From: Solwaraspora sp. WMMA2065
GTDB lineage: Bacteria > Actinomycetota > Actinomycetes > Mycobacteriales > Micromonosporaceae
NCBI RefSeq assembly: GCF_030345075.1
Contig: NZ_CP128361.1
Coordinates: forward strand, 6,634,001-6,698,000
Direction of reading: 5' to 3'
DNA: 64,000 nt
The notes under the pieces were generated by a model. The model had not been told where the DNA came from. It saw only the letters and a list, made by a program, of their open reading frames with translations, and searched no databases. This document shows positions 23,946 to 48,200 of the stretch, in pieces (the first letter of the stretch is position 1; each line of letters opens with the position of its first letter). A program made the position numbers and the translations under genes.

Positions 23946-24021
23946 TGCGGTGGACTGCCCGTCACTAGCATCGAGCCAAGTCCTCGCATTCGCTTTGCCG
24001 CTTCAGTTGTGGAGTGCCCGG

Positions 24022-27000
24022 ATGAACATCCAGCCCGAGAGCGTCGTCGACGACACCACCGGCAGCTCGGGCGGTGTCGCCGGGTTCCGTACCCGGTTGG
24101 CCGGGTTGCCCCCGGTGGAGCAGCACCGCCTGGTGCTCGAGCTGGTGTGCGTCGCGACCACCCAGGTCATCTCGCAGGTCCAGCCCGATGCGCCGGCCGA
24201 GGTGGACCCGGTGCTGCCCTTCCAGGACCTCGGGTTCGACTCGCTCGCCGCGGTCGAGCTGCACGAGCGGCTGACCGCCGCCACCGGCCTGGCGCTGCCG
24301 GTGACCCTGGCGTTCGACCACCCGACCCCGCAGGCCGTCGCCGATCTCGTGGTGCGGCAGCTGGTCGGCGCGCCCGTCGACGCCCGGCCGGTACGCCCCC
24401 GACGCGACGGCGCGGACGAACCGATCGCGATCGTCGGCATCGGCTGCCGCTACCCCGGCGGGGTGTTCTCCGCTGCCGACCTGTGGCAGCTTGTCGCCGA
24501 CGGCCGGCACGTGATCGGGGAGTTCCCGACCGACCGGGGCTGGGACCTGGCCGGACTGTTCGACCCGGACCCCGACCGGCCGGGTACCAGCTACGTGCGC
24601 CACGGCGCCTTCCTCGACACCGCCGCCGAGTTCGACGCCGACTTCTTCGGCATCGGCCCGCGCGAGGCGTCGGCGATGGATCCGCAGCAGCGGCTGGTGC
24701 TGGAGACGTCGTGGATCGCGCTGGAACATGCCGGGATCGACCCCATGTCACTGCGCGGCAGCCGGACCGGGGTGTTCGTCGGCGCCGAGCCGCAGGAGTA
24801 CGGACCACGACTGTACGAGGCCCCGGCCGGGCTGGACGGCTACCTGCTCGCCGGCAACGCGCCGAGCGTGGTCGCCGGGCGGGTGGCGTACACCCTGGGG
24901 TTGCACGGCCCCACCCTGACCGTGGACACCGCCTGCTCAGGGTCCCTGGTCGCGCTGCACCTGGCCAGCCAGGCCCTGCGCACCGGCGAGGCGTCGCTGG
25001 CGCTGGCCGGCGGGGTCGCGGTGATGGGCAGCCCCGGCACCTTCACCGCGTTCAGCCGCCAACGCGGCCTGGCCCCCGACGGCCGCTGCAAACCGTTCGC
25101 CGACGCCGCCGACGGCACCGGGTTCGCCGAGGGCGTCGGGATCCTCGTCCTGGAACGGCTCGGTGAGGCGCGCCGCCGTGGACACCGGGTTCTCGCCGTG
25201 CTGCGCGGCTCGGCGGTCAACTCCGACGGGGCGAGCAACGGGCTGACCGCCCCCAGCGGGCCCGCGCAGCAACAGGTGATCGCGGCGGCGCTGGCCGACG
25301 CCGGACTCGTCCCGGGTGACGTCAACGCCGTCGAGGCGCACGGCACCGGCACCAGGCTCGGCGACCCGATCGAGGCCCAGGCGCTGCTCGCGGCGTACGG
25401 TCAGGAGCGGGACGAACCACTGTGGATCGGTTCGCTCAAGTCCAACATCGGCCACACCCAGGCGGCGGCCGGGGTGGCGGGCGTGATCAAGATGATCATG
25501 GCCCTGCGGCACTCGCTGCTGCCCGCGACCCTGCACGTCGACCGCCCTACGCCGCGGGTGGACTGGACCGCCGGCGCGGTCGCGCTGCTGACCGACGCCC
25601 GCCCCTGGCCGGCACTGCCCCGTCCGCGCCGCGCCGGGATCTCCTCGTTCGGTGTGAGCGGCACCAACGCCCACGTCATCGTCGAAGAGGCCGACGCCGA
25701 GACCGCCGAGGCCGGTGAGGCCGGCGAGACCGGCGAGACCGGTGAGGCCGGCGAGACCGGTGAGGCCGGCGAGACCGGTGAGGCCGGCGAGACCGCCGGG
25801 GCGGGCGAACCGGCGGGCCAGGAAGCGCCCACGGTGCTGCCCCTGGTGCTATCGGCCCGCAGCGCGCCGGCGTTGCGGGCGCAGGCCGGTCAGCTGCTGC
25901 CGTTGCTGCGGGCCGGGACATCGCTGCCCGACACCGCGTACGCGCTGGCCACCACCCGCGCCGCGCTGGAACACCGGGCCGTGGTGCTCGCCGCCGACGC
26001 GCCCGAGGCGGTACGGGGCCTGGAAGCGTTGGCCACCGGCGAGACGACCGGCTCCGGAGTCTATGTCGGACGGACGATCGGCGGCCGGGTCGCGTACCTG
26101 TTCACCGGTCAGGGTGCCCAGCGCCTCGCCGCCGGGCAGGCCCTCGCCCGGCGGTTCCCCGCGTTCGCGCGGGCCTTCGCCGACGCGGCCGACCAGGTCG
26201 ACGTCCACCTGGACCGACCGCTGCGCTCCATCCTGACCGGCGACGACCGGGCCCTCCTCGACCAGACCCGGTACGCCCAGGCCGCGATCTTCGTCACCGA
26301 GGTGGCGTTGTACCGGCTGCTGGAGTCGTGGGGGCTCCGCCCCGACTACGTACTGGGCCACTCGGTCGGCGAGCTGGCCGCCGCCCACGTCGCCGGGGTG
26401 CTCACCCTGGCCGACGCGGCGCTGCTGGTGACCGCCCGGGGCGAGCTCATGCAGGCGTTGCCCGTCGGCGGAGCGATGGTCGCCATCGAGGCGGCACCCG
26501 ACGAACTGCCCGAGCGGCTGCCCGCCGACGTGAGCGTCGCGGCCGTCAACGGTCCGCGCTCGCTGGTCATCTCCGGCGACGAACGGACGGTCACCCAGGT
26601 TGCCGAAACCTTCGCCGCACAGGGCCGCCGGATCCACCCGCTGCGGGTGTCACACGCCTTCCACTCCGCCCGGATGGACCCGATGCTCGCGCCGTACCGC
26701 CAGTTCGCCCAGGTGGTCGACTTCGCGCCGGCCCGGATCCCGATGGTGTCGACGGTGACCGGCGCGCTGATCGGCGACGACGAACTGGCCGACCCCGAGT
26801 ACTGGGTACGGCAGGTGCGTCAGAGCGTCCAGTTCGCCGATGGCATGGCCGCGCTGGCCGCCGCCGGGGTGCGCACCTTCGTCGAACTCGGCCCGGACGC
26901 GGTGCTCAGCGCGCTCGGCCCGGCCTGCCTGCCCGACGGCCGCGACGACGTCTCCCTCGTCGCCACCCTGCGGCCGGGCCGCGACGAGGTCCGAGACCTG

Positions 27001-30000
27001 GTCGGGGTGCTCGCCCACCTGCACCAGCGCGGTGCGTCGGTGGAGTGGCCGGCCGTGTTCGGTGGGCAGGTGAACCACCGGGTCGAGCTGCCCACGTATC
27101 CGTTCCAGCGTCGCCGGCACTGGCTCACGCCACCCGGCCCGCGCCGTGACGCGGCCGCACTCGGCCAGGCCGACGCCGAACATCCGCTGCTCGGCGCGGC
27201 GGTCCGGCTCGCCGACAGCGACCGTACGCTGCTCACCGGCCGGATCTCGGCGCAGACCCATCCCTGGTTGGCCGACCACGTCGTCGCCGGTGCGACCCTG
27301 CTGCCCGCCACCGCCTTCGTCGAACTCGCCGGACACGCCGGCGCGCTGCTGGGCAGCCCGACGGTGGCCGAACTGACCCTGCACGCGCCGCTGGTCCTGG
27401 CCGACGGGGCGGCAACCGCACTGCAGATCATGGTCGGTCCCGACCAGGGTGACGGCCGGCGTAGCGTCACGATCCACTCCTGCGGCGAAGCCGTGACCAG
27501 CGGCAGCCGCTGGCTGCAGCACGTCAGTGGCACCCTGGCGGCGGCCGCGCCGGACGCACCCACCGAAGCCGACTGGGCGGTGACGTGGCCACCGCCCGGT
27601 GCCGAACCGGTCGACCTGTCCGACTGGTACGAGCGGCTCGCCGCCCAGGGCTACCAGTACGGCGACAGCTTCCGTGGGCTGCGGGCCGCCTGGCACGCGG
27701 CAGGCGAGGCGTTCCTGCACGTCGAGCTTCCCGAGCCGGTCCACGCCGAGGGCTACCGGCTGCATCCGGCCCTGCTCGACGCGGTGCTGCAGGCCACCGA
27801 GCTGGCGACCGAGCCGCCTACCAGATCGCCCAACGAACCGGCGACCGAGCCGCAGGCGGCCCAGCCGGGCGGTGCCGGGCAGATCCGGTTGCCGTTCGCC
27901 TGGCGCCACGTGTCCGCCCTGACCACCGGCGCGCGCGCCCTGCGGGTGCGGGTCACCTCGGCCGGCGAGCACGGCGTGTCGATCGAGGCCGTCGACGCCA
28001 CCGGCGCGCCCGTGGCGAACGTCGGGTCCTTCGTCACCCGTCCCGCCGACCCCGCCCGGCTGGCCGTACCGACCGGCGGCGGCCAGCTCTACCGGGTGAA
28101 CTGGATTCCGGTCGGCCCGGCGCAGCGGCCGCTCTCGTACGTGGTGCTCGACCAGGTCCGGCAACTGCCCGACGTGCTGCCGCAGGTCGTGGTGCTGCCG
28201 GTGCGCGCCGCCGGCATCGGAGCCGAGGCGGTCCGCACCGCCTGCGACGAGACGCTGGCGGTGATCCGGTCGTGGCTGGCCGACCCCCGTACGGCCGGAT
28301 GCCGGCTGGCCATCGTGACCGCCGGCGGAAACAGCCTCGACGGTGATCCCACCGGCACCGTCGACCCTGCCCACGGTGGCGTGCACGGCCTGGTCCGTGC
28401 GGCCCAGGCCGAACACCCCGGCAGGTTCCTGCTGCTCGACGTCGTCGCCACCGACGCCAGCGGCCTGGCCGCCGCGCTCGCCGCCGCCGTCGCCGCGGAC
28501 GAACCTCAGGTCGCGGTTCGCGCCGGCGCGGTGCTGGCGCCCCGGCTGGCCCTCGCTCCACCGGCGGAACCACTCCCGTCCGTTCCGACCGTCGGAGCCG
28601 CCCCCGCTGACGGCGCCGTCCGCAACGGTCGGTCGGGCCGGCTCGATCCGGCCGGCACGGTGCTGATCACCGGTGGCACCGGCGGTGTCGGGGCCGTCCT
28701 CGCCGAGCATCTGGTCCGTGCGCACGGGGTACGGCACCTGCTGCTGGTCAGCCGGAGCGGCCCACAGGCCGCCGGAGCCGGGGACCTGACCGCCAGGCTG
28801 GCCGAGTTGGGCGCCAGCGCGCACGTCGCCGCCTGCGACGTGTCCGACCGGTCCGCCCTCGCCGCGCTGCTCGACGGCATCGCCCCCGAGCACCCACTGA
28901 CCGCGGTGGTGCACGCCGCCGGCGTGCTCGACGACGGGCTCGTCGACACCCTCACCGGGCAGCGGATGGAGGCCGTCGCCGCCGCGAAGGCGTACGCCGG
29001 CTGGCATCTGCACGAGCTGACCCGGGAGCTGCCGCTGGCCTGGTTCGTGCTCTGCTCGTCGGCCGCCGGTCACCTTGACGGTGCCGGCCAGGCGAACTAC
29101 GCGGCCGCGAACGCCGCGCTGGACGCCCTCGCCGCCTACCGTCGTGACGCCGGCCTGCCCGCGCTCAGTCTGGCGTGGGGGCTGTGGGCACAGGCCGGTG
29201 GCATGGGGGACCGGCTGGACGACGCCGCCCGGCGACGTATCGAACGGTCCGGTCTGCCCGGCATGTCCATCCAGGACAATCTAGAGCTGTTCGACGCGGC
29301 GTTGCGCGTACCGGCGGCGACGCTGCTGCCGCTGCGGCTCGACCCGGCCGCGCTGCGGGCCAGGCCGGACGGTGTGCCGCCGCTGCTGCGTCAGATCGTC
29401 CCGGTGGTCCTCCCAGGCGGGAACCGGTCGACAGCCGCGACCGGCGCCGTGGCGTCCGGCACCGCGACGCCGGACGGGCGTCCGGCACCGAACGGAGTCG
29501 CGGCCGACTGGGCACGGCTCGCCCCGGCCGAGCGGCAGCGCGCCGTACTCACCCTGGTCCGACGCCTCGCGGCCGCCGTCCTCGGGCACAGCGGTGCCGA
29601 GGCCGTCGAGCCCGACCGGCCGTTCAGCGAGGTCGGGTTCGACTCGCTGGCCGCCGTGGAGCTGCGCAACCTGCTCACCACCGAGACCGGGTTCACCCTG
29701 CCGGCCACGCTCGTCTTCGACTACCCGACCCCTCAGGCGCTGGCCGTCTACCTGGTCGACAAGGCGGTGCCGGTCGCCGACGCGCCGGCAGCCGCGCCGG
29801 ACACCGTCACCGCCGCCACCGACGAGCCGATCGCGATCGTCGCGATGGCGTGCCGGTATCCGGGCGACGTGGCGTCACCGGAGCAGCTGTGGCGCCTGGT
29901 CGCCGACGGGGTGGACGCGGTCAGCGAGTTCCCCACCGACCGGGGGTGGCAGCTCGAGCAGATCTACCACCCTGAGCCGGGGCAACCTGGCCGCAGCTAC

Positions 30001-33000
30001 GTCAACCAGGGCGGATTCCTGCACGACGCGGCCATGTTCGATCCGGAGTTCTTCGGGATCAGTCCGCGGGAGGCAGCCGCGATGGATCCGCAGCAGCGCC
30101 TGCTGCTGGAGATCACCTGGGAGGCGGTCGAACGCGCCGGGATCAACCCGCACTCGTTGCGCGGATCCCGTACCGGGGTGTTCGCCGGCGTCATGTACCA
30201 CGACTGGGGCACCCGGCTCGGGCAGGTCTCCGAGGAGATCGCGGGCTACCTGGGCAACGGCAGCCTGGCGAGCGTGGTGTCCGGCCGGATCGCGTACACC
30301 TTCGGCTTCGAAGGGCCCGCCGTCACCGTCGACACCGCCTGCTCCTCGTCGCTGGTCGCGCTGCACTGGGCGGCGCGGGCGCTACGGCAGGGGGAGTGTA
30401 CGTTGGCCCTGGCCGGCGGGGTGACCGTCATGTCCACACCCGACACATTCATCGACTTCAGTCGTCAGCGCGGGCTGGCCGGCGACGGCCGCTGCAAGTC
30501 GTTCGCCGCGGCGGCGGACGGCACCGGCTGGGGCGAGGGCGCCGGTGTGCTGCTGCTGGAGCGGTTGTCGGACGCCCAGCGCAACAACCATCCGGTGCTG
30601 GCGGTCATCCGAGGTTCGGCGGTCAACTCCGACGGCGCCAGCAACGGACTGACCGCGCCGAACGGCCCGTCCCAGGAACGGGTGATCCACGACGCGCTGA
30701 CCAGTGCCGGGCTGAGCCTGGTGGACGTCGACGCCGTCGAGGCACACGGCACCGGCACCACCCTGGGCGACCCGATCGAGGCGCAGGCGCTGATCAAAAC
30801 CTATGGGCAGCACCGGCGCGACGACCGGCCGCTGTGGCTCGGCTCGATCAAGTCGAACCTCGGCCACACCCAGGCGGCCGCCGGCGTCGCCGGGGTGATC
30901 AAGATGGTCCAGGCGATGCGGCACGCCGAACTGCCGCGGACCCTGCACGTGGACCAGCCGTCGGCACAGGTCGACTGGTCGGCGGGCGAGGTGCGACTGC
31001 TGGCGCGGGCGCGCCCGTGGCCGGCACCGGACGGCCTGCGGCGGGCGGCGGTGTCGTCGTTCGGTATCAGCGGCACGAACGCCCACGTGATCCTCGAGCA
31101 GGCGCCGGCGCCGGTGCCGGCACCCGCGTCGGCCGACCCGGGACCAGCTCACGCCGGGGTGGTGCCGCTGGTGCTGTCCGCGCGTGACTCCGCCGCGCTG
31201 CGGGAGCTCGCGCGGCGGCTGGTGCCCGTGGTGGAGTCCGGTGTGCCACTGACCGACGTGGCTCGGGCGCTGGCCGGTACGCGGGCGGTGTTCCCGCACC
31301 GGGCCGTGGTACTGGCCGAGAACCCGGCGGACGCCACCGCCGGACTACGGGCGGTCGCCACTGGCGGAACCGCCGCACAGGTGGTCGTGGGTTCGGTGAC
31401 CGGTGCCGGCGAGGTCGGCTTCGTGTTCCCCGGCCAGGGTTCGCAGCGGCCGCGGATGGGCCGTGGGCTGTACCACCGGTTCGATGTGTTCGCGGCGGCG
31501 TTCGACGAGGCGTGCGCGGTCTTCGACGAGCTGGGGCTGCCGTTGCGTGACGCACTGCTCGGCGAGACGGACGACTGGCTGGACCAGACCGCGTACGTAC
31601 AGCCGGCGCTGTTCGCGGTGGAGGTGGCGCTGAGCCGGCTGCTGCGTTCGTGGGCGGTGCACCCGGACGTGGTGCTGGGCCACTCGGTGGGCGAACTGGC
31701 GGCGGCGGTGGTCTCCGGCGCGCTGTCGCTCACCGACGGCTGCCGGGTGGCGGCGCACCGGGGCCGGTTGATGCAGCGGCTACCCGAGGGCGGAGCGATG
31801 GCGGCGGTGGGCACCGCCGAGGACGTGGTGCGACCGTTGCTGGACGACGGCGTGTGGCTGGCGGCGGTCAACGGGCCATCGGCGGTGGTGCTGTCCGGGT
31901 CACGCCCGGCGGTGGAGTCGGCCGTGGAGCGACTGCCGGCGGGGACCCCGGTCTCCTGGCTGCGGGTGTCCCACGCCTTCCACTCCGGACTGATGGAACC
32001 GGTTCTGGCTGACTTCCGGCAGGTCGTGGCGCAGGTGGCAAGCCGACCGCTGACGGTGTCGGCGGTGTCGTCGGTCTCCGGCGTCGCGGTCGACGACCAG
32101 TGGGGCGAGCCGGACTACTGGGTCGACCAGATCCGGCGGCCGGTACGGTTCGGCGACGCGGTGACCAGCGCGGTCGACACCGGCGTCGCGACGTTCGTGG
32201 AGGTCGGACCCGGTGCGGCGCTGTCCGGTCTGGTCGCCACGATCGCCGCCGGCGCCGAGGTGGTGCCGGTGCTGCGTACCGGGGCCGACGAGGTGGAGTC
32301 GGTGCTGTCCGGCGTCGCCCGGCTGTGGGTACGCGGTGCCACGGTCGATTGGGACGCGGTGCTGCCGCCCGGGGCTGACACCGGCAGCGGCCGTGGACCT
32401 GTCGACCTGCCCACCTATCCGTTCCAGCGCAAGCGTTACTGGTTGACGGCCAGCACCGACCCGACCGGCGTGGGCCAGACCCCGGTGCGGCACCCGATGC
32501 TCGCGGCGGTGCTGCCGCTGGCCGGCGCGGGTGTCGTACTGACCGGGCAGCTGGACCCGGCCATGCAGCCGTGGCTCGCCGACCATCAGGTACTCGACAC
32601 CGTGCTGCTGCCCGGCACGGCGTTCGTCGAACTCGCGCTGCGCGCCGGGGCGCAGGTGGACCATCCGGTCCTCGGTGAGCTGACCCTGCAGGCACCGCTG
32701 CCGCTGAACGGAGCCGACGGTGCGGTCGTCCAGATCGTCGTCGACCGCCCCGGGTCCGACGGGTGCTCGATATCCATCCACTCGCGCCCCGCCAACGCTG
32801 CCGCTGACGCCACCTGGACCCGGCACGCGACCGGGACCATGCGGCCCGCGACGACCGCAACCGGCGGCGGTGCCACCGGTGCCGCGCTGACCGAGTGGCC
32901 GCCCGCCGGGGCCACCGCGATCGACGTGACCGCGGCCTACGATCAGCTCGCCGACCGCGGCTACGACTACGGGCCGGCCTTCCAGGGACTGCAGGCCGCG

Positions 33001-36000
33001 TGGCGGCGCGGCGACGAGATCTTCGCCGAGGTCACCCTCCCCGCCGACACCGCCAGCACCGGTTACGGACTGCACCCGGCGCTGCTGGACGCCGCGATGC
33101 ACGCCGACCTGCTCGCGGGTGGACCGACCCTGCTGCCGTTCGTCTGGAACGACGTCGTGCTGCACCGGTCCGGCGCGTCCGAACTGCGGGTACGCATCAC
33201 CCGCCTGCGCGGCGACGAGCTGTCCTCGATCGACGTCGCGGACGTCACCGGCCAGCCGGTGGCGAGCATCGGCACCCTGGTTTCTCGACCCGTCGCGCCG
33301 GCCCAGCTGGCCGCACCGGCCGGTCAGCAGCTGCACACCGTCGAGTGGACAACGGTGTCCGGCGGGGATCCGGTCCCCGACGACGGATGGCACACGATCG
33401 GCGTGCCGTACGGCACCGAACCGGCCTGGCCTGATCCGGCAGCCCTGCTGGCGGCGGTCGACGACGGAACCCCGGCACCCCGGATGCTGGTGCTGCGCGT
33501 ACCCGACCGGGACGGGGCGGGCCTGATGCCGCAGGCGGCCCGGGCAGCGGTCGGGACGACGCTGGCCGTCGCGCAGGCGTTCGTCGCCGACCACCGGTTC
33601 GACGCGACCCGGTTGACCGTCGTGACCGACAGGGCGGTGCGGCTGCCCACCGACGCCGACCCGGCGCTGACCCACGCCGGGGTGTGGGGGCTGGTCCGGG
33701 CGGCGGCGCAGGAGCAGCCGGGCCGGTTCCAGCTGATCGACCTGGACAGTGGGGACGCGACGGCCGTCGCTGGACTGCGGGCGGGGCTCGCCGGCGACGA
33801 GCCGGAGCTGGCGGTACGGGACGGGCGCTGTTTCGTGCCCCGGTTGAGCCGCTACCCGGCTGGTGCCGCCGCCACGGCGACCTGGGATCCCGATGGCACG
33901 GTGCTGGTCACTGGTGGTACGGGTGGTCTGGGTGGTCTGGTGGCGCGGCATCTGGTGCGGGTGCACGGGGTGCGGCATCTGGTGCTGGTGGGTCGGCGTG
34001 GGTCGGGTGCGCCGGGTGTGGGGGAGTTGTGTGCTGAGTTGTCGGGGTTGGGGGCGCGGGTCAGGGTTGTCGGGTGTGATGTGGCGGACCGGGGTGCGGT
34101 GGCGGGTGTGTTGGCGGGGATCGATGTTGATCATCCGTTGACGGCGGTGGTGCACGCCGCCGGTGTCGCTGACGCCGGCACGCTGACCACCTTGACCCCG
34201 GACGCGGTGTCCGCCGTGTTCGGCCCCAAGGTGGACGCCGCCTGGCACCTGCACGAGCTGACCCGGGAGCTGCCGCTGGCCGCGTTCGTGCTGTTCTCTT
34301 CCGCTGGCGGGCTGGTGCTGGCCGCCGGTCAGGGCACCTACGCGGCGGCCAACACGGTCCTCGACCAGCTGGCGGAGTACCGGGCGGCGCACGGGCTGCC
34401 GGCGACGGCGATGGCCTGGGGGATGTGGAACGAAGCCACCGGGATGGGCGCGCCGGACCAAGCCGCCCTGCACCGGATGTCCCGGCTCGGGATGCCCGCG
34501 CTGGACCGCGGTGACGCGCTGGCGCTGTTCGACGCCGCGCTGGCCGCCGGCGTGCCGGCGATCGTTCCGCTCCAGGTGGACCGGGCGGCGCTGCGCGCCA
34601 GGTCCGAGGTGCCGGCGCTGCTGCGTAACCTGGCCGGGCGATCCGTTCACGACGGTGACCGACCGTCGGCCCGCCGTGGCGTTTCCCGACTCGCCGAGCT
34701 ACCCGCCGAGCAACGCGAGCAGGCGTTGCTCGACCGGGTCCGGGTGGAGGTCGCCGGAGTGCTCGGGTACGACGGCCCGGACGCCGTCGCGCCCGGCCGG
34801 GCGTTCCGCGATCTGGGGTTCGACTCGCTCGCCGCGGTCGAGCTGCGTAACCAGCTCGCCACGGCGACCGGGCTGACCCTGCCGGCCACCCTGGTGTTCG
34901 ACCACCCCACTCCCGCCGCCGTGGCGCGGTTGCTGGCGGACAGGCTCACACCCGTCGACCAGCCGCCGACGGACCCGTCGACCGCCGACGGCGCACCGGC
35001 CGACACGACCACGGCGTCGCCGGTCGCCGGCGCCCCGACCACCGTCGAGGATCCGATCGTGATCGTGGGGATGGCCTGCCGCTACCCCGGCGGGGTGAAC
35101 TCGCCGGCCGACCTGTGGCGGCTGGTCGTCGACGAGGTCGACGCGATCGCGCCGCTGCCCACCGACCGGGGCTGGGACGTCGACGGCGTCTACCACCCGG
35201 AACCGGGCACACCGGGCCGCAGCTACGTGCGGGAAGGTGGCTTCCTGGACGACGCGGCCGGCTTCGATCCGGACTTCTTCGGCATCGGCCGTCGTGAGGC
35301 GATCGCCATGGATCCGCAGCAGCGCCTGCTGCTGGAGACCGCCTGGGAGGCCGTCGAACGCGCCGGGATCGACCCCCGTGCCCTACGGGGCAGCGCGACC
35401 GGCGTCTTCGCCGGCGTGATGTACGACGACTACGGCACCCGGTTGCACAACCCACCCGAGGACGTCGTGCCGTACCTGACCAACGGCAGCTCCGCCAGTG
35501 TGCTGTCCGGTCGGGTGGCGTACCACCTGGGTCTGGAGGGACCGGCGGTGTCGGTGGACACGGCGTGTTCGTCGTCGTTGGTGGCGTTGCATCTGGCGGT
35601 CAACGCGTTGCGTTCGGGTGAGTGCGAGCTGGCCCTGGCCGGCGGGGTGACGGTGATGTCCACCCCGGAGGTCTTCGTCGACTTCAGCCAGCAGCGTGGG
35701 TTGGCGCCGGATGGGCGGTGCAAGTCGTTCTCGGATGACGCGGACGGGACGGCGTGGTCGGAGGGGGTGGGTGTGTTGGTGGTGGAGCGGTTGTCGGATG
35801 CGCGGCGTCGTGGTCATGGGGTGTTGGCGGTGGTGCGGGGTAGTGCGGTGGGTTCGGATGGTGCGTCGAACGGGTTGACGGCGCCGTCGGGTCCGGCGCA
35901 GGAGCGGGTGATTCGGCGGGCGTTGGCGGTGGCGGGTGTGTCGGCGGGGGGTGTGGATGTGGTGGAGGCGCATGGTACGGGGACGCGGTTGGGGGATCCG

Positions 36001-39000
36001 ATCGAGGCGCAGGCGTTGCTGGCGACGTATGGGCGGGGTCGGGACGCGGATCGTCCGTTGTGGTTGGGGTCGTTGAAGTCGAACATCGGTCATGCGCAGG
36101 CGGCGGCGGGTGTGGGTGGTGTGATCAAGATGGTGATGGCGTTGCGGGCGGGGGTGTTGCCGCGGTCGTTGCATGTGTCGGAGCCGTCGTCGCATGTGGA
36201 CTGGTCGGCGGGTGGGGTGCGGCTGTTGACCATGGCGCGGCCGTGGCCGGGTACCGACGGACCGCGTCGGGCGGGGGTGTCGTCGTTCGGGTTGAGTGGG
36301 ACGAACGCGCATGTGATCGTGGAGGAGGCGCCGGGGGATGTGGCTGTGGGTTGGGGGGTGGAGCCGCCGACGCACCACTTCGACCACCAGCGGCTGTGGC
36401 TGGAGGACGGCCCCGGCAAGAGCGACTTCGGTGCGGCCGGACTGGAACCGCTGAACCATCCGCTGCTGTCGGCCGTGGTGGCGATGCCGGACACCGGCGG
36501 GCTGACGCTGACCGGACGGATCTCCGTTGCCGGCCAGCCCTGGCTGGCCGACCATCGGGTGCTCGGCAGGGTACTGCTGCCCGGCACCGCCTTCGTCGAA
36601 CTCGCCACCCGGGCCGGCGACCAGGTCGGCTGCGCGTACCTGGAGGAACTGACCCAACTGGCGCCGCTGGTGGTGCCCGACGGCGCGGCCCTGGCCCTGC
36701 GGGTCGTGCTCGGCGCGGCCGACGACACCGGTCGCCGGCCGGTGTCGGTGTACTCCCGGCCGCAGCGGCCCGACGCGTCCGACGGGTGGACCAGGCACGC
36801 CACCGGGACCCTCGCCCCGGACGCCCCGCCCACCGTGACCGCACCCGACCAGTGGCCGCCGACCGGTGCCCGGCCGGTCGATCTGGACACCGTGTACGAC
36901 GACTTCGCCTCCCTGGGGTACGGGTTCGGGCCCACGTTCCGGGGACTGCGCGCACTGTGGCGGCGCGACGCCGAGGTCTTCGCCGAGGTCGTGCTGCCCG
37001 ACAGCGCGGACGCCGGGGCGTTCGGGCTGCATCCGGCGCTGCTGGACGCCGCCGTGCAGGCCGCGGACTTCCTGGTCGAGGGCGGACCCCGGGCGATCAC
37101 CCAGACCCGGGTGCCGTTCGCCTGGACCGGCGTCGCGGTGCACGCCGCCGGAGCGGGCGCGGTGCGGGTGCACGCCCGCGCCCTGCAGCCGGACGGCGTT
37201 GTGGCGCTGGACGTCACCGACCTCGCCGGCCAGCCGGTGGCGGCGGTGGGGGCGCTGACCCCCCGGCCGTTGACGCCGGAGCAACTCACCGACGGCGACG
37301 AGCCACTGTACGACCTGGTGTGGCGGGGTTGTGAGCCGCCGGCAACCGGTGGTGGTCGGCGGGTGGTGCTCGGTGCCGACCAGCCTGACCTGGATGCCCT
37401 CGCTGCGGTGATCGACGCCGGTGAGCCGGCACCGGATCTTGTCGTGCTGACCTGCCGGGCGGGCGACGACGGCGCCGTACCGCAGCGGGTCCGTGAGGTG
37501 ACCCACCGGACACTCGCCACGGTCCAGCGGTGGCTGGCCGACGAGCGTTTCGCCGGGGCCAGGCTGGTGGTACTCACCCAGGGCGCCGTCGAACCGGTCA
37601 CCGACCTGGCCCAGGCGCCGGTGTGGGGCCTGGTCCGGGCCGCACAGGCGGAGAATCCGGACCGGTTCGTCCTGGTCGACAGTGACTCCGGCGAGCTGCC
37701 GGCCCTGCCGTCCGACGAACCCGAGTTGCTGGTACGCAACGGCGAACTGCGGGTACCGAGGCTGGCACGGGCCGAGGTGGGTGACGCGACCGCGGCCTGG
37801 CCGAGGCACGGCACGGTCCTGGTCACCGGTGGCACCGGAGCCCTGGGAGCGCTGGTCGCACGTCACCTGGTCACCCGGCACGGCGTGCGCCGCCTGCTGC
37901 TGACCAGCCGCCGTGGCCGGCAGGCGCCCGCGGCGAACCGCCTTGTCACGACCCTCACCGAGCTCGGCGCAGAGGTGTCGGTGGTGGCCTGCGACGTCGC
38001 CGACCGCGATGCGCTGGCCGACCTGCTCGCCCAGATCCCGGCCGCGCACCCGTTGACGGCCGTGGTGCACACCGCCGGTGTGCTCGACGACGGGGTCGTC
38101 ACCGGCCTCACCCCGCAGCGGATCGACGCTGTTCTCCGTCCCAAGGTCGATGCCGCGTGGCACCTGCACGAGCTCACCGCCGACCGGGACCTGTCGGCGT
38201 TCGTGTTGTTCTCCTCGGCCTCGGGCGTGCTGGACGGCGGCGGCCAGGGCAGCTACGCGGCAGCCAACGTGTTCCTCGACGCGCTCGCCCGGCTGCGTCG
38301 GTCCCATGCACTGCCCGCAGTTTCGGTCGCCTGGGGACTGTGGGCGGACGATTCCGAACTGGCCTCCAGCGCGATGACCAGCCAGCTGGCCGCCGGCGAC
38401 ATCGAGCGGCTGCGTCGACTCGGCGTCACCGCGATCGCCCCGGCCGACGGGCTCGCGCTGCTGGACCGCGCGGTCGCCGCTGCCCGGCCGGTGGCGGTCG
38501 CCGTGCAGTTGGACACCGCCGCCGTACGGGCCCGTGCCGCTGACGTACCGGCGGTGCTGCGTGATCTGGCCGGCCCGGCCGCCCGCCCGGTCCCGGCTGC
38601 CGCAGCCGACGTACCTCTGCGGCAGCGGCTGGCGGCGATGGGCGCCGCCGACCGGGAGCGGAGCATGCTCGACCTGGTCCGGTCCCACGTCGTCGCCGTT
38701 CTCGGCCGATCCGACCCGCGCACCGTCGACCCGGACAAGGGGTTCCTCGACCTGGGACTGGACTCGTTGGCCGCGCTCGAACTGCGTAACCGGCTCGCGA
38801 CGGCCACCGGCCAGCGGCTGCCGGCGACGTTGGTGTTCGACCAGCCGACCGCGAACCTGCTCGCGGCGTACCTGCGCACTGAACTTCTCGGCGCCGAGCC
38901 CGAGCCCGCCGACGGTCCGGACCCGGACGAGGAACGGTTGCGGGCGGCCCTGGCGGCGGTCCCGCTGGCCGCGATCCGTCAGGCGGGGATCCTCGACACG

Positions 39001-39216
39001 CTGCTCGCGCTCGCCGGCACCGCAGCCGCGCCGGGCACCGCCGGTCCGGCCGGCAACGGCAACGGTTCGCTCCGCGACGGCGGCGTACCGCACGACACCG
39101 GCCGCGACGCGGCCGAGCGGTCCGCGATCGACGCCGAATCGATCCGGGCCATGAACGTGGACGACCTGGTACGCGCCGCGCTCGGTCGGGGCGATGCCGG
39201 CAACTCGGAGGGCTGA
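24022..39216 (+). CDS. Type I PKS, loading ACP plus three modules (third lacks AT)
   Basis: A 5064-residue PKS. Order: loading ACP (Ser74); KS (Cys305)-AT (Ser781, His878)-DH (His1086)-KR-ACP (Ser1875); KS (Cys2107)-AT (Ser2555, His2651)-DH-KR-ACP; KS (Cys3849)-no AT-DH-KR-ACP; C-terminal docking tail. An N-terminal ACP with no loading KS or AT fits a line primed by the VinK-type enzyme. Both ATs have HAFH (malonyl). The first KS active site reads TACSGS instead of TACSSS. The second DH motif has Asp for Gly ([10 protein letters not shown]), and the second KR reads VADAG where the others read VLDDG. In the third module the KS ends at [10 protein letters not shown] and reaches the post-AT motif PTHHFDHQR within about 20 residues. 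ATG 24022 is chosen over GTG 23950 because GGAG lies 7 bp before it. Confidence 0.95.
25714..25794 (+). repeat. 18-bp tandem repeat in KS-AT linker of PKS
   Basis: Four full copies and one half copy of GGTGAGGCCGGCGAGACC encode a GEAGET repeat in the linker between the first KS and its AT. The frame is kept and the insert is acidic and probably flexible. Copy number may vary between strains. Confidence 0.9.
33895..34185 (+). repeat. KR-encoding repeat, copy 1
   Basis: This 291-bp stretch encodes the NADPH-binding half of the second-module KR of the giant PKS. It matches 43537-43827 in the next PKS gene with only two differences noticed by eye. Third codon positions are rich in G and T, unlike the C/G-rich flanks, so the tract looks recently copied. 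Confidence 0.88.
35691..36392 (+). repeat. KS/AT-deletion-junction repeat, copy 1
   Basis: This 702-bp stretch covers the 3' half of the third KS and runs across the junction where the AT is missing, up to the post-AT linker. It matches 45273-45974 with a single difference seen (36019 C, 45601 T). A shorter, more diverged relative with about twelve differences over 312 bp lies at 4601-4912. The tract uses G/T-ending codons unlike its flanks. Confidence 0.92.
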
Positions 39217-39222
39217 GGCACC

Positions 39223-42200
39223 GTGGAAGCATCTGTCGCAGAAATCGTCGAGGCCCTCCGGAAGTCCATGCTGGACAACGACCGGTTGCGTCGGGAGAAC
39301 GAGGCGATCACGGCCGCCGCCGCCGAGCCGGTGGCCATCGTCGGTATGGGCTGCCGCTACCCGGGTGGCGTCGGCTCGCCCGCACAGCTGTGGGATCTGG
39401 TCGCCGCCGGGCGGGACGCGATCGGCCCGTTCCCCACCGACCGGGGCTGGGACGTCGAATCGCTCTACCACCCCGAACCCGGCAAGCCGGGGCGTAGCTA
39501 CACCCGCTCGGGTGGCTTCCTGTACGACGCCGCCGGCTTCGACGCCGACTTCTTCGGCATCAGCCCCCGCGAGGCCACCGCCATGGACCCCCAGCAGCGG
39601 CAGTTGCTCGAAGTGTCCTGGGAAGCCCTGGAGAACGCCGGCATCGACCCCCGCTCGCTGCGGGGCGGCCGCACCGGTGTCTTCGCCGGCGTGATGTACC
39701 ACGACTACGGCGCCGGTGGCAGCGACGGGAGCCTCATCAGCGGCCGGATCGCGTACACGCTGGGGTTGGAAGGGCCGGCCGTCACCGTCGACACGGCCTG
39801 CTCGTCCTCGCTGGTCGCGCTGCACTGGGCGATCCAGTCGGTACGCCGGGGCGAGTGCCCGCTCGCCCTGGTGGGCGGGGTCACGGTGATGGCGACGCCG
39901 GAGACGTTCATCGAGTTCAGCCGGCAGCGCGGACTGGCGGCCGACGGCCGGTGCAAGTCGTTCTCCGACGACGCCGACGGCACCGGATGGGCCGAAGGTG
40001 CCGGGGTGCTGGTCGTCGAGCGGCTCTCTGCGGCCCGCCGCAACGGCCACCGGATCCTCGCGGTGGTGCGGGGCAGTGCGGTCAACTCGGACGGGGCCAG
40101 CAGCGCGTTGACCGCGCCGAACGGGAGCGCCCAGCAACGCGTCATCCACCAGGCCCTGGACAGCGCCGGTCTGCGCCCCGACGACGTCGACGTGGTCGAG
40201 GCGCACGGCACCGGCACCACCCTCGGCGACCCGATCGAAGCCCACGCGCTGCTCAGCACGTACGGCCGCGGCCGACGACGGCCGCTGTGGCTCGGCTCGT
40301 TGAAGTCGAACATCGGCCACACGCAGGCCGCCGCCGGGGTCGGCGGCGTCATCAAGATGGTCGAGTCGATGCGCCACCGGACGCTTCCCCGTACCCTGCA
40401 CGCCGACCGCCCCAGCCGGCAGGTGGACTGGTCGGCCGGGCCCGTCCAACTGCTCACCGAGGCGCAGGACTGGCCTGCCGGCGAACGGCCGCGCCGCGCT
40501 GCGGTCTCCTCCTTCGGTATCAGCGGCACCAACGCCCACGTGGTGATCGAGGAAGGCGACCCGGATCCGGCGCCGGCCGCGGACCGCCCGGCCGAAGGAC
40601 CGGTCGCGGTGCCGCTGTCGGCCCGGTCGGCGCAGGCGGTACGGGAACAGGCGGCACGGCTGCTCGACCGGCTCGACGCCGTGCCGCAGGAGTCACCGGC
40701 CGCTGTCGCCACCACCCTGGCCGCCGCGCGTACCGTGATGGATTACCGGGCGGCGCTCGTCGTCACCAGCCGTGCCGACCTCGTCGACGGCCTGCGCCAG
40801 CTGGCCGACGGCCGCGGCGGCCCCGGTGTCTGGCAGGGCGAGAACACCGCAGGCGGCACCGCGTTGCTGTTCACCGGACAGGGCTCGCAGCGCCTCGGCG
40901 CCGGCCGCGAGCTGTACCAGCGGTACGCGCCGTTCGCCGTCGCCCTGGACGAGATCTGCCAACTGCTCGACCCCCAACTCGACCGGCCGTTGCGCTCCGT
41001 CATGTGGGCCGAGCCGGGCAGCGCCGAGGCGGCCCTGCTCGACCAGACGGCGTACACCCAGGCCGCGGTCTTCGCCATCGAGGTGAGCCTCTACCGGCTG
41101 CTCGCCGCCTGGGGCGTACGGGCGGACTTCGTCTGCGGACACTCCATCGGTGAGATCGCCGCCGCGCAGGTGGCCGGCGTACTGACGCTGCCGGACGCGT
41201 GCCGCCTGGTGGCGGCCCGGGGGCGGCTGATGCAGGCGCTGCCCCCTGGCGGGGCGATGGTCGCCGTGTCCGCCGCCGCCGGGCAGGTGGAGCCGCTGCT
41301 GGTCGACGGCGCGTCGCTGGCCGCCGTCAACGGGCCGGCGTCGGTGGTGGTCTCCGGGCAGGAGTCCGCCGTCCTGGCGACGGTGGCCCAATGCGAGAAG
41401 CTCGGACACCGGACGATCCGGCTGTCGGTGTCGCATGCGTTCCACTCGCCGTTGATGGAGCCGATGCTGCCCGCGTTCGCGCGCACCGCCGCCGCACTCG
41501 ACTACGCCGAGCCGGACATCGCCCTGGTCTCCACAGCGACCGGCGCGTTGGCCGACGGCTCGGTGTTGGGCAACGCCGAGTACTGGGTACGCCAGGTGCG
41601 CGGCACGGTGCGTTTCCGTGACGCCGTCGGGGCACTGGTCGAGGTCGGTGCCACCACTTTCGTCGAGATCGGGCCCGACGCGGTGCTGGCGCCGCTGGCG
41701 ATGCGCTGTGTCGAGCCGACCGGGCGGACGTTCGCCGCCACGATGCGCCGCGCCCGGCCGGAGCCCGAGGAACTGCTCGGCGCGCTCGCCCGGTCCTACG
41801 TCAACGGATGCCCGGTGGACTGGTCGGCGGTGCTCGGCGCGGACCGGCGCCCTGGGGTGCCGCTGCCCACCTACCCGTTCCAGCATCAGCGTTTCTGGCT
41901 GCCACCCCGCGACACCACGCCGACCGACGTCGAGTCAATCGGGATGACCCCGCTGGCGCACCCGCTGCTGTCGGTCGTGGTACCCGCGCCGGACGCCGAC
42001 AGTGTCGTCCTGTCCGGACGGCTCTCGCCGACGCGGCAACCCTGGCTGGCCGACCACGAGGTGCTCGGCACCGTCCTGGTGCCCGGCAGCGCGTACGTCG
42101 AACTCGCCCGACGGGCCGGCGAGCACGTGGGTTGCGATCTGTTGCGGGAGCTCGCGCTGCAGACACCGCTGGTGTTGCCGGCCGGCAGCGGCGCGGCGCT

Positions 42201-45200
42201 GCAGGTGCTGGTGGGGGCGGCGGACCACGCCGGGATCCGGTCGGTGCAGATCTTCTCCCGGCTCGACGACACCGGTGCCTGGACCCGCCATGCCGTCGGC
42301 TCGCTCGCCCCGGCGGCCGCCGGGATCCCGAACGGCGTCGGGACGTCCGCATCGGATTCGTCTGCATCGGATCTGACTACGACGGATCGGTCCACGTCGG
42401 ACCTAGTCACGTCGAACCCGTCCAGGTCGGACCTGGCCGGCGTGACCCGGGCCACCGAGCACGGCCAGCCGGAGTGGCCGCCGCCGGGTGCGACCGCGCT
42501 GCCGGCGGCCGAGGCGTACGACCGGCTCGCCCGCCGGGGCTACCGGTACGGCCCGGCGTTCCGCGGTCTCACCGCCGCCTGGAGACGCGGCGACGAGCTC
42601 TTCGCCGAGGTGTCCCTGCCGGAACCGGCCGCCGGATACGGCCTGCATCCCGCGCTGCTGGACGCCGCGTTGCACGTCGGGCTGCTCGTCGACGACGACC
42701 AGGACGTGGCGCTGCTGCCGTTCACCTGGTCGGACTTCAAGCTCGCCGCGGTCGGCGTCCGGGCGGTCCGGGTCCGGCTGACCAGGGTTCGCGGTGACGT
42801 CGAGACGAGACTCGTCGTCACTGACACCGACGACCGCCCGGTCGCGTCGGTGCGGTCCATCATCGCCCGGCCGGTGTCCCGTGACCAGTTGGCGGCGACA
42901 CACCCGGCAGTGGGGGACGCGCTGTTCACGATCGGCTGGCGGCCGGCCGCGGCCGGTCACCGTGACGAGCCGCTGCCCGGGCGGGTGGACGCGATCGGCG
43001 ACGATCTCGACCTGGGCGGCCACGTGCACCCCGACCTGGACGGTCTGCTGGCGGCCGTCGCCGCTGACGACGTCGACATCGCCGGCGCAGACGCTGCCGA
43101 CGGCTTCCCGGGTGCGGCGGCACCGATGATCGTGTGCGTGCGCGTCGAGACGCTCACCGCGACGTCGGGCGGCACGCTGCTGCCACGGCTCCGGTCCAAC
43201 GTCACCGGGTTGCTCACCGTACTGCGTCGGTGGTTGACCGAACCCCGGCTGGCCGCGACCCGCCTGGTGGTGCTGACCACCGCGGCGGTGCCCACCACCG
43301 CCGGAGACGGGGTCGGTGATCTGGCTGTCGCCCCGCTGTACGGGCTGTTGCGCGCCGCACAGGCCGAGCACCCCGGCGCGATTCAACTGATTGACGTGGA
43401 CGGACATGTCGACGGCGCGACGCTGCGTCGGGCCATCGCCACCGATGAGCCGGAGCTGGCCGTACGCGGCAACCGGATTCTGTCCCCCCGACTGGTTCCC
43501 ACGCCCCCGGCCGCGCCACCGGGCTTCGCCAGCGACGGCACGGTGCTGGTCACTGGTGGTACGGGTGGTCTGGGTGGTCTGGTGGCGCGGCATCTGGTGC
43601 GGGTGCACGGGGTGCGGCATCTGGTGCTGGTGGGTCGGCGTGGGTCGGGTGCGCCGGGTGTGGGGGAGTTGTGTGCTGAGTTGTCGGGGTTGGGGGCGCG
43701 GGTCAGGGTTGTCGGGTGTGATGTGGCGGACCGGGGTGCGGTGGCGGGTGTGTTGGCGGGGATCGATGTTGACCATCCGTTGACGGCGGTGGTGCACGCC
43801 GCCGGTGTCGCCGACGCCGGCACGCTGGAGACCCTCACCGGTCGACAGATGGAGTCCATGCTCGCGGCGAAGGTCGACGGGGCCTGGCACCTGCACGAGC
43901 TGACCCGGGAGCTGCCGCTGGCCGCGTTCGTGCTGTTCTCGTCGGCGGCCGGTACGCTGCTCGCCGCCGGCCAGGGCGGCTACGCCACGGCGAACGTCTT
44001 CCTGGACGCGCTCGCCGCGCACCGCCGGGCCGAGAACCTACCGGCGGTCAGCCTCGCCTGGGGGCTGTGGGACACCGCCACCGGCATGGGCGCCGCGCTC
44101 ACCGAGGCCGACCGCCGCCGGATGACCCGGCTCGGGCTGCCGGCGCTGCCGGTCGACGACGGGCTGGCGTTGGCCGACGCATCCTTCGCCGCCGACGCCG
44201 CGCTGGTGCTGCCGGTGCGGATCGACCAGCGCGCGCTGGCCGCCCGTACCGATCAGGTGCCGGCGCTGCTGCGGGATCTGGCCGCCACCGGTACCGGCGC
44301 GGGCCTCGAGCAGCGCTCATCGGCAGGGCCGTTCACCGACGTCAGCGGTGCCGACCGCGACCGGCGGCTGCTCGACCTGGTACGCCGCCACGTCGCCACG
44401 GTGTTGGGACACGCCGGACCGGAGCAGGTCGCCCCCCGGCGGGCGTTCGCCGAACTCGGCTTCGACTCGCTGAGCGCGCTGGAACTGCGTAACCAGCTCG
44501 AAGGCGCCACCGGGGTCAGGTTGCCGGCGACCCTGGTGTTCGACCATCCGAACAGCCAGTCGGTGGCCGACTTCCTCGGCACCGAACTCGACCGCCACGC
44601 CGGCGTCAGCCCGGCCGCCCTGACCGGACCCGCCGGTACGGCCACCGCGGCCCCGGCCGACGCACCGGAGGACGACCCGATCGCGATCGTGGGGATGGCG
44701 TGCCGGTTCCCCGGTGGGGTGGTCTCGCCGGAGGGGTTGTGGGATCTGGTGGTGGGTGAGGGGGATGCGACTGGTGAGTTTCCGGTGGACCGGGGGTGGG
44801 ACACGGAGGCGTTGTTCGATCCTCGGCCGGGTCGGGTGGGGCGGTCGTATGTGCGTCGTGGTGGGTTCCTGTATGACGCGGCGGGGTTCGATGCGGGGTT
44901 CTTCGGGGTGGGTCCGCGTGAGGCGCGGGAGATGGATCCGCAGCAGCGGTTGTTTCTTGAGGTGTCGTGGGAGGCGTTGCGGCGGGCGGGGGTGGAGCCG
45001 GCGTCGTTGGCGGGTAGTCGTACCGGTGTCTACGCCGGGGTGATGTACCACGACTACGGCCCGACCGGCAGCGCCGGCAGCGTGGTCTCCGGTCGGGTGG
45101 CGTACCACCTGGGTCTGGAGGGGCCGGCGGTGTCGGTGGACACGGCGTGTTCGTCGTCGTTGGTGGCGTTGCATCTGGCGGTCGACGCGTTGCGTTCGGG

Positions 45201-48200
45201 TGAGTGCGAGCTGGCCCTGGCCGGTGGGGTCGCTGTCATGGGGACGCCCAGCATGTTCGTCGAGTTCAGCGAGCAGCGTGGGTTGGCGCCGGATGGGCGG
45301 TGCAAGTCGTTCTCGGATGACGCGGACGGGACGGCGTGGTCGGAGGGGGTGGGTGTGTTGGTGGTGGAGCGGTTGTCGGATGCGCGGCGTCGTGGTCATG
45401 GGGTGTTGGCGGTGGTGCGGGGTAGTGCGGTGGGTTCGGATGGTGCGTCGAACGGGTTGACGGCGCCGTCGGGTCCGGCGCAGGAGCGGGTGATTCGGCG
45501 GGCGTTGGCGGTGGCGGGTGTGTCGGCGGGGGGTGTGGATGTGGTGGAGGCGCATGGTACGGGGACGCGGTTGGGGGATCCGATCGAGGCGCAGGCGTTG
45601 TTGGCGACGTATGGGCGGGGTCGGGACGCGGATCGTCCGTTGTGGTTGGGGTCGTTGAAGTCGAACATCGGTCATGCGCAGGCGGCGGCGGGTGTGGGTG
45701 GTGTGATCAAGATGGTGATGGCGTTGCGGGCGGGGGTGTTGCCGCGGTCGTTGCATGTGTCGGAGCCGTCGTCGCATGTGGACTGGTCGGCGGGTGGGGT
45801 GCGGCTGTTGACCATGGCGCGGCCGTGGCCGGGTACCGACGGACCGCGTCGGGCGGGGGTGTCGTCGTTCGGGTTGAGTGGGACGAACGCGCATGTGATC
45901 GTGGAGGAGGCGCCGGGGGATGTGGCTGTGGGTTGGGGGGTGGAGCCGCCGACGCACCACTTCGACCACCAGCGCTACTGGATCAGCAGCCGGAGCTGGG
46001 CGAGCGACCCCGCCGCGATCGGCCTCGACGCGATCGGCCACCCGGTGCTCGGCGCCGGACTGAGCACCCCGGAGCCGGGCGTGAAGCACTTTACCGGCAG
46101 GCTGGCCCTGGCCAGCCAGCCCTGGCTGGCCGACCACCGGGTGGACGGGCAGGTGCTCTTTCCCGGCGCGGGCTTCATCGATCTGGCCCTGTCCGCCGCG
46201 GCCGAGATCGGCTGCGCGCGGATCGACGAGCTCACCGTGCACGCGCCACTGACCCTCGGCGAGGGCGGCGTGGACGTCCAGGTAGTCGTCACCGCAGCCG
46301 ACCCGGCCGGGGTACGGCAACTGAGCATCCACTCCCGGGACCGCAACGAAGCGCGCGACGCCGTCTGGCGCCAGCACGCGTCGGGCAGTATCCGGCCCAC
46401 CGGTCCGTCGGACAGCCCGCCGCCGGGGCCACGGCTGGACGAATGGCCGCCACCCGACGCCGTACCGCTGCCGATCGACGCCCTGTACGGGCGGCTCGCC
46501 GAGCGCGGCCTCGGATACGGCCCGTCGTTCCAGGCGGTACGGGCGGCATGGCGCCGGGGCACCGAGGTCTTCGTCGAGGTGTCCGTGGCCGACGCGGCCA
46601 TGGACCGGTTCACCCTGAACCCGGCCGTGCTCGACGCGACCACCCACGTCCTGCTCGACGGTGACGGGCCGGTGGAGGTGCCGTTCAGCTGGCGGGGGGT
46701 CACCCTGCGGCACGCCGGTGTCGAGACGGTACGGGCGCGCATCGCCCCCGTCGGTGAACGCGATCTGTCGCTGACGCTCGCCGACGTGGCGGGAGAGCCC
46801 GTCGCCCAGATCGAGACGATCGTGGCCCGGGCGCTGCCGTCGACCAGCGAGCCGGCCGGGGCCGTCCACGAACTGCGGTGGCAGGCCGGGCCCCGGTCGG
46901 CGCCGGACGCCGCACCGTACCTCGAATGGGACGCCCGCCCACCCGGACAGCTCGATCCGGTGCCGGTCGTGCTGCGGTGCGCGTCCGCCGACGAACTGCC
47001 GGCGGATGATCCGGTCGCCGCGACCCACCAGAGCGTGACACGGATCCACGACGCGTTGTGTGACTGGCTAGCCGACGAACGGTACGCGGCAGCCAAGTTG
47101 GCCATCGTCACGCGCGGCGCGGTGAGCGTACGGGCAGGTGGTGGGGCTGTCGCGGGTGGGCCGGACGATCCTGACGTCGACCTCGCCGCCGCTGCGGTGT
47201 GGGGTCTGGTCCGCGCGGCGCAGGCGGAGAACCCCGACCGGTTTCTCCTGGTCGACCAGGACGGGCGGGCCGAGTCCGCACAGGTGCTCCCCGCCGCCCT
47301 GGCCAGCGGGGAGACCGAGCTGGCGATCCGGGGCGGGGAGCTGCTGGTGCCCCGGCTGACGGTGGCACCGGTGCCACCGTCGCCCGCGCGGCGCGCCCTG
47401 CCGCCGGACGGGACGGTGCTGATCACCGGCGGCACCGGTGGTCTCGGCGCGGTCGTGGCCCGCCACCTCGTCGCCACGTACGGCGCACGGCGTCTGCTGC
47501 TGGTCAGCCGTCGGGGAGGTCAGGCGCCGGGCGCCGCCGAGCTGGTGGCCGAACTGACCGGCATGGGGGCCGAGGTCGCGGTCGTGGCCTGCGACGTCGC
47601 CAATCGCGACGCGGTCGGCGAGCTGCTGGCCGGTGTGCCGGCCGCGTACCCGCTGACCGCGGTCGTGCACGCGGCCGGCCTGCTCGACGACGGGGTGCTG
47701 ACGGCGCTGACCCCGCAGCGGATCTCCGCCGTCCTGCGGGCCAAGGTGGACGCCGCCTGGCATCTGCACGAGCTCACCGCCGACTCCGAACTGTCCGCGT
47801 TCGTGCTCTTCTCGTCGGTCGCCAGTGTCGGCGGCGCGGCCGGGCAGGCCAACTACGCGGCGGCCAACGCGTTTCTCGACGGGCTCGCCCAGCATCGGCA
47901 CGCACGCGGGCTGACGGCACAGTCGCTGCTGTGGGGTCGGTGGGCGACCGGAGACGACATGGCAGCTCGACTGTCCACGGTCGATGGCGGTCGGCTCTCC
48001 CGGTCCGGACTGCTGCCGCTGTCGGCCGAGGAAGGGCTCGCGCTGCTGGACACCGCGCTCGCCAGTGACGCCGACGTGCTCGTGCCGGCCAAGTTCGACG
48101 TCGCGGCGCTGCGTGCCGAAGGCTGGGCGACGGCACCGGTGTTCCTCGGCCTGACCGGCCCGGTCACGCCGGTGCCGGCCGGACCGCTCGCCGCCTCGAC

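Follow-up and report, generated by a model that had tools for sequence, protein, structure and literature searches.

Five of the eleven modules of a putative macrolactam PKS line lack the AT and the KS-AT linker domain

In a type I PKS line encoded by six genes, five of the eleven modules carry neither a KS-AT linker domain nor an AT. Three of them, E3, F2 and D1, lie in the window (the whole stretch of DNA that was analysed, 64,000 nucleotides, positions 6634001-6698000 of a genome that is a single contig of 6.74 Mb), and two, A1 and C1, are encoded upstream of it. An AT in every extension module characterizes modular cis-AT type I PKSs; here, 5/11 modules were found without one. A preliminary description of this DNA had presented E3 as AT-less. 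The in-frame absence of both domains from E3 was confirmed by translation, motif distance and HMMs built from the line's own domains, but four more AT-less modules, two of them inside the window, had been overlooked. The architecture is probably real, and the modules are probably functional and loaded in trans by a malonyl transferase.

Results

Organization of the PKS line and its cluster

The own-line HMMs delineated one assembly line of 11 modules encoded in the order E-F-A-B-C-D (Table 1), with an AT in E1, E2, F1, B1, C2 and D2 and none in E3, F2, A1, C1 and D1. Gene E was placed first and gene D last because the former starts with an ACP and the latter ends with an apparent thioesterase (we take the GYSAGG motif in its C-terminal region to mark a putative TE). 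The gene E ORF encodes three modules in 5088 aa without internal stops. Since the start of gene A overlaps a glycosyltransferase ORF, its true start is probably further in. Module E1 contains a low-complexity GET/GEAGE repeat (~25690-25825) after the KS and before the KS-AT linker domain.

Genes for a VinK-type acyltransferase, two AMP-binding enzymes, a decarboxylase, a mutase and a cytochrome P450 are located between the two PKS blocks; the true start of the mutase is internal to its ORF. Such a gene set has been described for vicenistatin (available text of PMC11284099). With the VinK-type, adenylation, decarboxylase and mutase genes found beside a PKS that has a loading ACP, the cluster is assigned by its gene content to the vicenistatin-type beta-amino-acid macrolactam PKSs. 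Four EryCIII-like glycosyltransferases, an NDP-hexose 2,3-dehydratase and a C-methyltransferase are encoded upstream, which suggests a glycosylated product. Past the PKS genes, at 58688-60487, lies a GH6 glycoside hydrolase with a CBM2 cellulose-binding domain.

Table 1. Positions of the main features (window coordinates unless marked as genome)
Feature	Position	Strand	Basis or remark
PKS gene A	genome 6618694-6623208		A1 (no AT); upstream of window
PKS gene B	genome 6623209-6627972		B1 (AT)
PKS gene C	genome 6627972-6637547; 3' end in window 2..3547	+	C1 (no AT), C2 (AT)
PKS gene D	3569..12388	+	D1 (no AT), D2 (degenerate KS and AT), C-terminal region with GYSAGG
AT-less junction of D1	4880..4996	+	linker different from E3/F2
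KS of D2	7538..8782	+	GFGAGT in place of HGTGT; presumed terminal module without extension
VinK-type acyltransferase	15114..16046	+	PF21124, 7.4e-31
AMP-binding enzyme (VinM/VinN type)	16498..18069	+	type by gene set
AMP-binding enzyme (VinM/VinN type)	18227..19723	+	type by gene set
PLP-dependent decarboxylase (VinO type)	19720..20946	+	type by gene set
ORF with methylaspartate mutase E chain (MutE) match	20813..22741	+	match at residues 229-620
Cytochrome P450	22738..23928	+
PKS gene E	23950..39216	+	loading ACP, E1 (AT), E2 (AT), E3 (no AT); own-line HMM
KS of E3, up to TNAH	35053..36300	+
GRINS over E3 KS end	35454..36443	+	mean identity 0.96; skew GC 0.38, TA 0.35
E3 copy of tract shared with F2	35690..36392	+	703 nt, 1 mismatch
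AT-less junction of E3, TNAH to post-AT motif	36301..36399	+	translation, motif distance
DH of E3	36433..37299	+	own-line HMM
KR of E3	37810..38361	+	own-line HMM
ACP of E3	38635..38874	+	own-line HMM
PKS gene F	39223..48792	+	F1 (AT), F2 (no AT); own-line HMM
GRINS over F2 KS end	44664..46013	+	mean identity 0.96; skew GC 0.39, TA 0.37
F2 copy of 703-nt tract	45272..45974	+
AT-less junction of F2	45883..45981	+

Architecture of the AT-less modules

Module E3 reads KS-DH-KR-ACP, with no AT in between. The TNAH that ends its KS (from 36301) is followed by [18 protein letters not shown], by the post-AT motif [11 protein letters not shown] at 36367-36399 and then by the DH. From TNAH to the F of this motif there are 24 (A1), 29 (C1), 32 (D1), 26 (E3) and 26 (F2) residues, against 443-480 in the line's six AT-bearing modules. 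The linkers of A1, C1, D1 and E3/F2 are unlike in sequence and length, those of E3 and F2 being identical, and at all five junctions F-x(3)-R-x-W is retained and the reading frame is intact. Comparison of the translations revealed no LSAR-like start of a KS-AT linker domain at any of the five junctions, nor, in the 24-32 residues between TNAH and the motif F, a flanking subdomain of the kind that follows the KS in trans-AT lines. The preliminary claim that E3 differs in this respect from classic trans-AT PKSs thus held, with 26 residues at its junction and a KS nearest to cis-AT KS.

When the E3 KS was compared with PDB entries, DEBS entries scored 501-687 bits, other AT-bearing PKSs (GfsA, PikAI, CurL, CalA3) 321-466 bits and single-KS trans-AT entries at most 334 bits; 7zma, presumably a trans-AT bimodule, reached 608 bits as a sum over two matched stretches of one chain. 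By these match scores, the E3 KS most resembles cis-AT KS. An AlphaFold model of the E3 KS-DH, from a 42-row alignment that includes AT-bearing homologues, had a mean pLDDT of 89.4 and a pTM of 0.68, with pLDDT 88 for the motif block (441-450) and 57 and 52 for the linker blocks on either side. In VIA-align, E3 residues 1-451 matched residues 39-913 of the Lsd14 KS-AT (Z 62.7, rmsd 1.4, 441 aligned; these ranges give the first and last aligned residues only). Residues 1-451/452 similarly matched DEBS didomains up to the post-AT end, and trans-AT KS were also matched (Z 52-56). As the KS ends well before residue 913 of Lsd14, the post-AT motif appears in the model to sit in its normal position on the KS despite the missing linker domain and AT.

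Repeats and gene conversion at the junctions

Modules E3 and F2 share a tract of 703 nt that runs from 611 nt 5' of TNAH to 91 nt 3' of it and ends within the post-AT motif. Since this near-identity spans the junction, the AT-less junction itself was copied between the two modules by gene conversion. The preliminary reading of the E3 junction as a loss stands, but it had missed this converted copy in F2 and the AT-less module in the orthologous line of genome G316 (see below). The tract ends at the site where module junctions of trans-AT lines fall, LPTYPFxxxxxW (PMC6941969, in the part available).

All five AT-less modules share a skewed core at the 3' end of the KS. Over its alignment columns 990-1230, they have a mean identity of 95-98%, a mean GC skew of 0.33-0.39 and an AT skew of -0.36 to -0.45, whereas the six AT-bearing modules are 68-77% identical to one another with skew near zero. 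The skewed core is thus present in 5/5 AT-less and 0/6 AT-bearing modules (p = 1/462, Fisher, by hand, assuming independent modules, which converted modules are not). GRINS are defined as stretches of at least 500 nt that combine intense GC and TA skew with more than 80% identity to a second part of the PKS (PMC9899208, as far as available). An ungapped version of that method placed GRINS at the KS end of A1, C1, E3 and F2 and at none of the six AT-bearing modules; D1 falls outside the formal definition because its shared stretch is too short. GRINS were rejected as a sufficient cause of AT loss (G316 has such skew in 7/10 AT-bearing modules) and as a necessary one (D1 is below the formal definition, and AT-less modules of genomes G142, contig C34, and G1097 lack the skew).

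Orthologous lines

Genome G154 carries an orthologous line: BLAST matched genes A, B, D, E and F, and DH comparison identified C1 and C2, on two contigs. Each of the five AT-less modules has its reciprocal-best DH partner there in an AT-bearing module (identity 57% for A1, 56% for C1, 58% for D1, 64% for E3 and 49% for F2); for the D1 orthologue, the contig starts within the AT. As these orthologues carry an AT, the ATs were most simply lost en route to the present genome. In G316, a single-contig genome of a different genus, the A1 orthologue is AT-less and the other ten modules show an AT, that of F1 being divided between two ORFs. The loss from A1 is perhaps earlier than the others, or independent in G316.

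Function of the AT-less modules and extender loading

All five AT-less modules retain the KS Cys and both His, the DH His/Asp, the KR Tyr/Asn and the ACP Ser, with variants in the Rossmann motif of the C1 KR (GGPGSLG) and in the F2 DH (LNPAVLD); for E3, the intact motifs agree with the preliminary description. Conservation of the KS 3' half could be passive, through conversion, but the DH, KR and ACP are located outside the E3/F2 tract. Both the motifs and their location argue against a reading in which AT-less modules do not extend and the chain passes from KS to ACP, the product being built by the AT-bearing modules alone. Moreover, with five such skips, a line that is otherwise orthologous would lose half its length. 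We consider skipping rather unlikely, even with a precedent for macrolactam PKS modules reported as non-functional for missing domains (accessible part of PMC10662134). The trans loading of E3 put forward in the preliminary description is a reasonable proposal, to which pass-through without extension is a less likely alternative.

One module of the line does look non-extending, which favours skipping. In D2 (7538-11062) a KS His is lost, the AT motifs are decayed and no KR was found with the own-line HMMs; its orthologue in G154 is decayed too. Nor was D2 accepted as a donor of AT activity: neither the GQGxQ Gln nor the Arg of the ARG motif, which we take to be functional AT motif residues, is left in its AT, and its KS lacks the HGTGT His.

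Since five modules are without a loading domain, another enzyme probably loads them. Gene A lacks any AT and gene D has only a decayed one, so malonyl would come from another polypeptide if their modules extend. Genome-wide, PF00698 gave 15 matches, four of which form two contig-end duplicate pairs. Only one match stands alone, a short FabD-like ORF far from the cluster (genome 2737674 onward), assigned as FabD because it adjoins an ORF that reads as FabH-like; it has a C-terminal extension of ~90 residues. The scan of cluster ORFs revealed no dedicated malonyl trans-AT, which would also fit skipping, and the sole free-standing AT among the ORFs scanned is the VinK type. PF00698 passed over this VinK homologue, so divergent ATs can be missed. 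Complementation in trans has a precedent in the auroramycin PKS, where a malonyl-specific trans-AT rescued inactivated (Ser-to-Ala) AT6 and AT9 in vivo, while AT10 rescue gave less than 5% of the auroramycin yield and, together with the expected product, a methylmalonyl one (PMC6943886, in part). There, however, the AT fold and linker domain are kept; in the present line both are gone.

Assembly of the region

Bases 1-24231 of the contig exactly repeat 6618753-6642983, which is the A-D part of the cluster, and are joined to 6715921 without microhomology. This copy seems to be either a contig end that was misjoined or a deletion variant of 73 kb. A contig start that is chimeric within this very cluster raises the question of whether assembly omitted or merged near-identical GRINS ATs in five modules, as does a macrolactam PKS that was published incomplete and later corrected with long reads (PMC10662134, partial text). 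The duplication leaves the E3 junction untouched, and E3 and F2 were both resolved across their near-identical 703-nt tract. The AT losses coincide with repeats, as a collapse would also give, but it should leave one skewed AT copy, and none was seen among the ATs measured: the line's six ATs have no skew over the 300 nt after the KS, and six further PF00698 loci (FabD being outside this set) have a GC skew of at most 0.06. In the relatives G316 and G299, the skew does continue past the KS into the AT side, which favours a collapse. Four distinct linkers, every one in frame with the motif retained, the lack of any remnant of the LSAR start and the AT-less A1 orthologue in an independent single-contig genome (G316) all argue for genuine junctions. 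Assembly collapse is therefore unlikely, and we give it little credence. Recruitment of the VinK-type enzyme to load malonyl onto the AT-less modules, in addition to its role with the starter, is suggested by its being the sole free-standing AT among the cluster ORFs scanned. It is very improbable, because VinK takes dipeptidyl groups from VinL and passes them to the loading ACP, with a large cavity to fit (available text of PMC11284099), and because a VinK homologue occurs in 40/354 family genomes while AT-less modules in the homologous line were found in 2/40.

Distribution of AT-less modules

Contiguous AT-less junctions were found in 3/40 VinK-bearing family genomes (the present one, G316 and, in another cluster, G142) and in 1/392 Streptomyces genomes (G1097), counts that are lower bounds because scoring and reading covered some of the candidates only. 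With junction model A1, 118 of 354 family genomes matched at 1e-42 (best 9-10 candidates per genome scored); among the listed matches starting at model position 21 or lower, G316 was AT-less besides the present genome. Nine other genomes with such matches, and a near full-length match in a tenth, all carry an AT, and a regex scan of G270 found no AT-less junction. Across the class, with the same number of candidates scored, 1/394 genomes matched at 1e-53, namely the present one, a match such as that of G316 (2.2e-48) being too weak for this threshold; in Streptomyces, 4/392 matched at 1e-55, all on the DH side only.

Model A2, applied to the 40 VinK-bearing genomes, gave at-least counts: the eight other long matches that were read carry an AT, ten genomes have further matches reaching to about position 186, and matches were listed down to 1e-66. 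In Streptomyces, 9 of 392 genomes matched model A2 at 1e-72 (best 7 candidates per genome scored); of the eight besides G1097, two long matches carry an AT and the rest reach the KS side only. The G1097 module has its AT deleted in frame, with both ends of the AT region retained and no skew. In G142, contig C34 (78.5 kb) encodes a loading module of KSQ-AT-ACP type, then four extension modules that are all AT-less and whose KS is directly joined to DH or KR; it has no other AT match and no GRINS skew.

In GTDB loci (80 of more than 580 relatives), 171 KS had two further domains, and the one not followed by an AT was masked. A plasmid search matched 124 records, with more than 80% of the query covered in 20; among the 60 matches listed, seven records with a match to the KS side or over more than 80% were opened, and all carry an AT.

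Discussion

We hold it to be reasonably likely that the linker domain and AT were excised from five modules, that the junction was spread by conversion and that FabD or neighbouring ATs load the modules in trans. A cis-AT macrolactam PKS of 11 modules would have lost the whole KS-AT linker and AT block, in frame, from E3, F2, A1, C1 and D1. The KS end would thereby be joined to the C-terminal post-AT motif, seated on the KS as usual according to structure prediction. In this line, the loss accompanies a GRINS-like repeat at the 3' end of the KS. Gene conversion has copied the AT-less junction between modules, E3/F2 being the pair in which this is directly seen. The five emptied modules, their catalytic motifs retained, would presumably go on extending the chain, their ACPs being malonylated in trans by FabD or by the ATs of neighbouring modules. 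The junctions, the shared tract and the AT-bearing orthologues are directly visible; from them we infer loss by deletion, activity and the identity of the loader.

More tentatively, a cis-AT line may here be turning into a trans-loaded one: conversion between GRINS repeats would spread the excision, and FabD or the remaining ATs would serve with no dedicated trans-AT. Such a route to AT-less lines could be separate from the known trans-AT lineage, with the G142 line as a possible end state. Related lines with none (G154), one (G316) and five (here) AT-less modules of the same module set make a cis-to-trans transition testable, and may illustrate a path from one class of such enzymes to another. 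If the modules work, their KS can do without both an AT and a KS-AT linker domain in cis, with consequences for extender delivery to ACPs and for PKS cut sites in engineering; the natural seam at the post-AT motif is the module junction of trans-AT lines too.

The line shares with vicenistatin and auroramycin the VinK type, two adenylation enzymes, decarboxylase, mutase and a loading ACP placed first. The vicenistatin PKSs are, however, described as typical type I (PMC11284099, in the text available), whereas 5/11 modules lack an AT here. The G142 contig C34 PKS likewise joins KS to DH or KR without a linker domain, but it belongs to another cluster, all its extension modules are AT-less and it has no skew. 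Trans-AT PKSs such as those of bacillaene and isomigrastatin are alike in having AT-less modules with a post-AT type motif; their KS, however, keep the flanking subdomain and score far lower against the E3 KS, while the linker here is ~20 residues. AT-less modules have reportedly been found in the simocyclinone PKS as well. Because neither a flanking subdomain nor, among the cluster ORFs scanned, a dedicated malonyl AT was found, we do not class the present line as a trans-AT PKS. In the literature covered, as available and mostly without subscription journals, we found no description of AT-less, linker-domain-less modules in a macrolactam line. A catalogue of 8799 contains 122 PKSs and 351 PKS-NRPS hybrids of mixed cis-/trans-AT type (PMC10394414, in part), among which the present line may have been counted. 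It resembles these in combining AT-bearing and AT-less modules in one line and differs in that no dedicated malonyl trans-AT gene was found, no flanking subdomain is present and the KS is of cis-AT type. On its sequence, it appears to be a variant of mixed cis-/trans-AT lines not described before.
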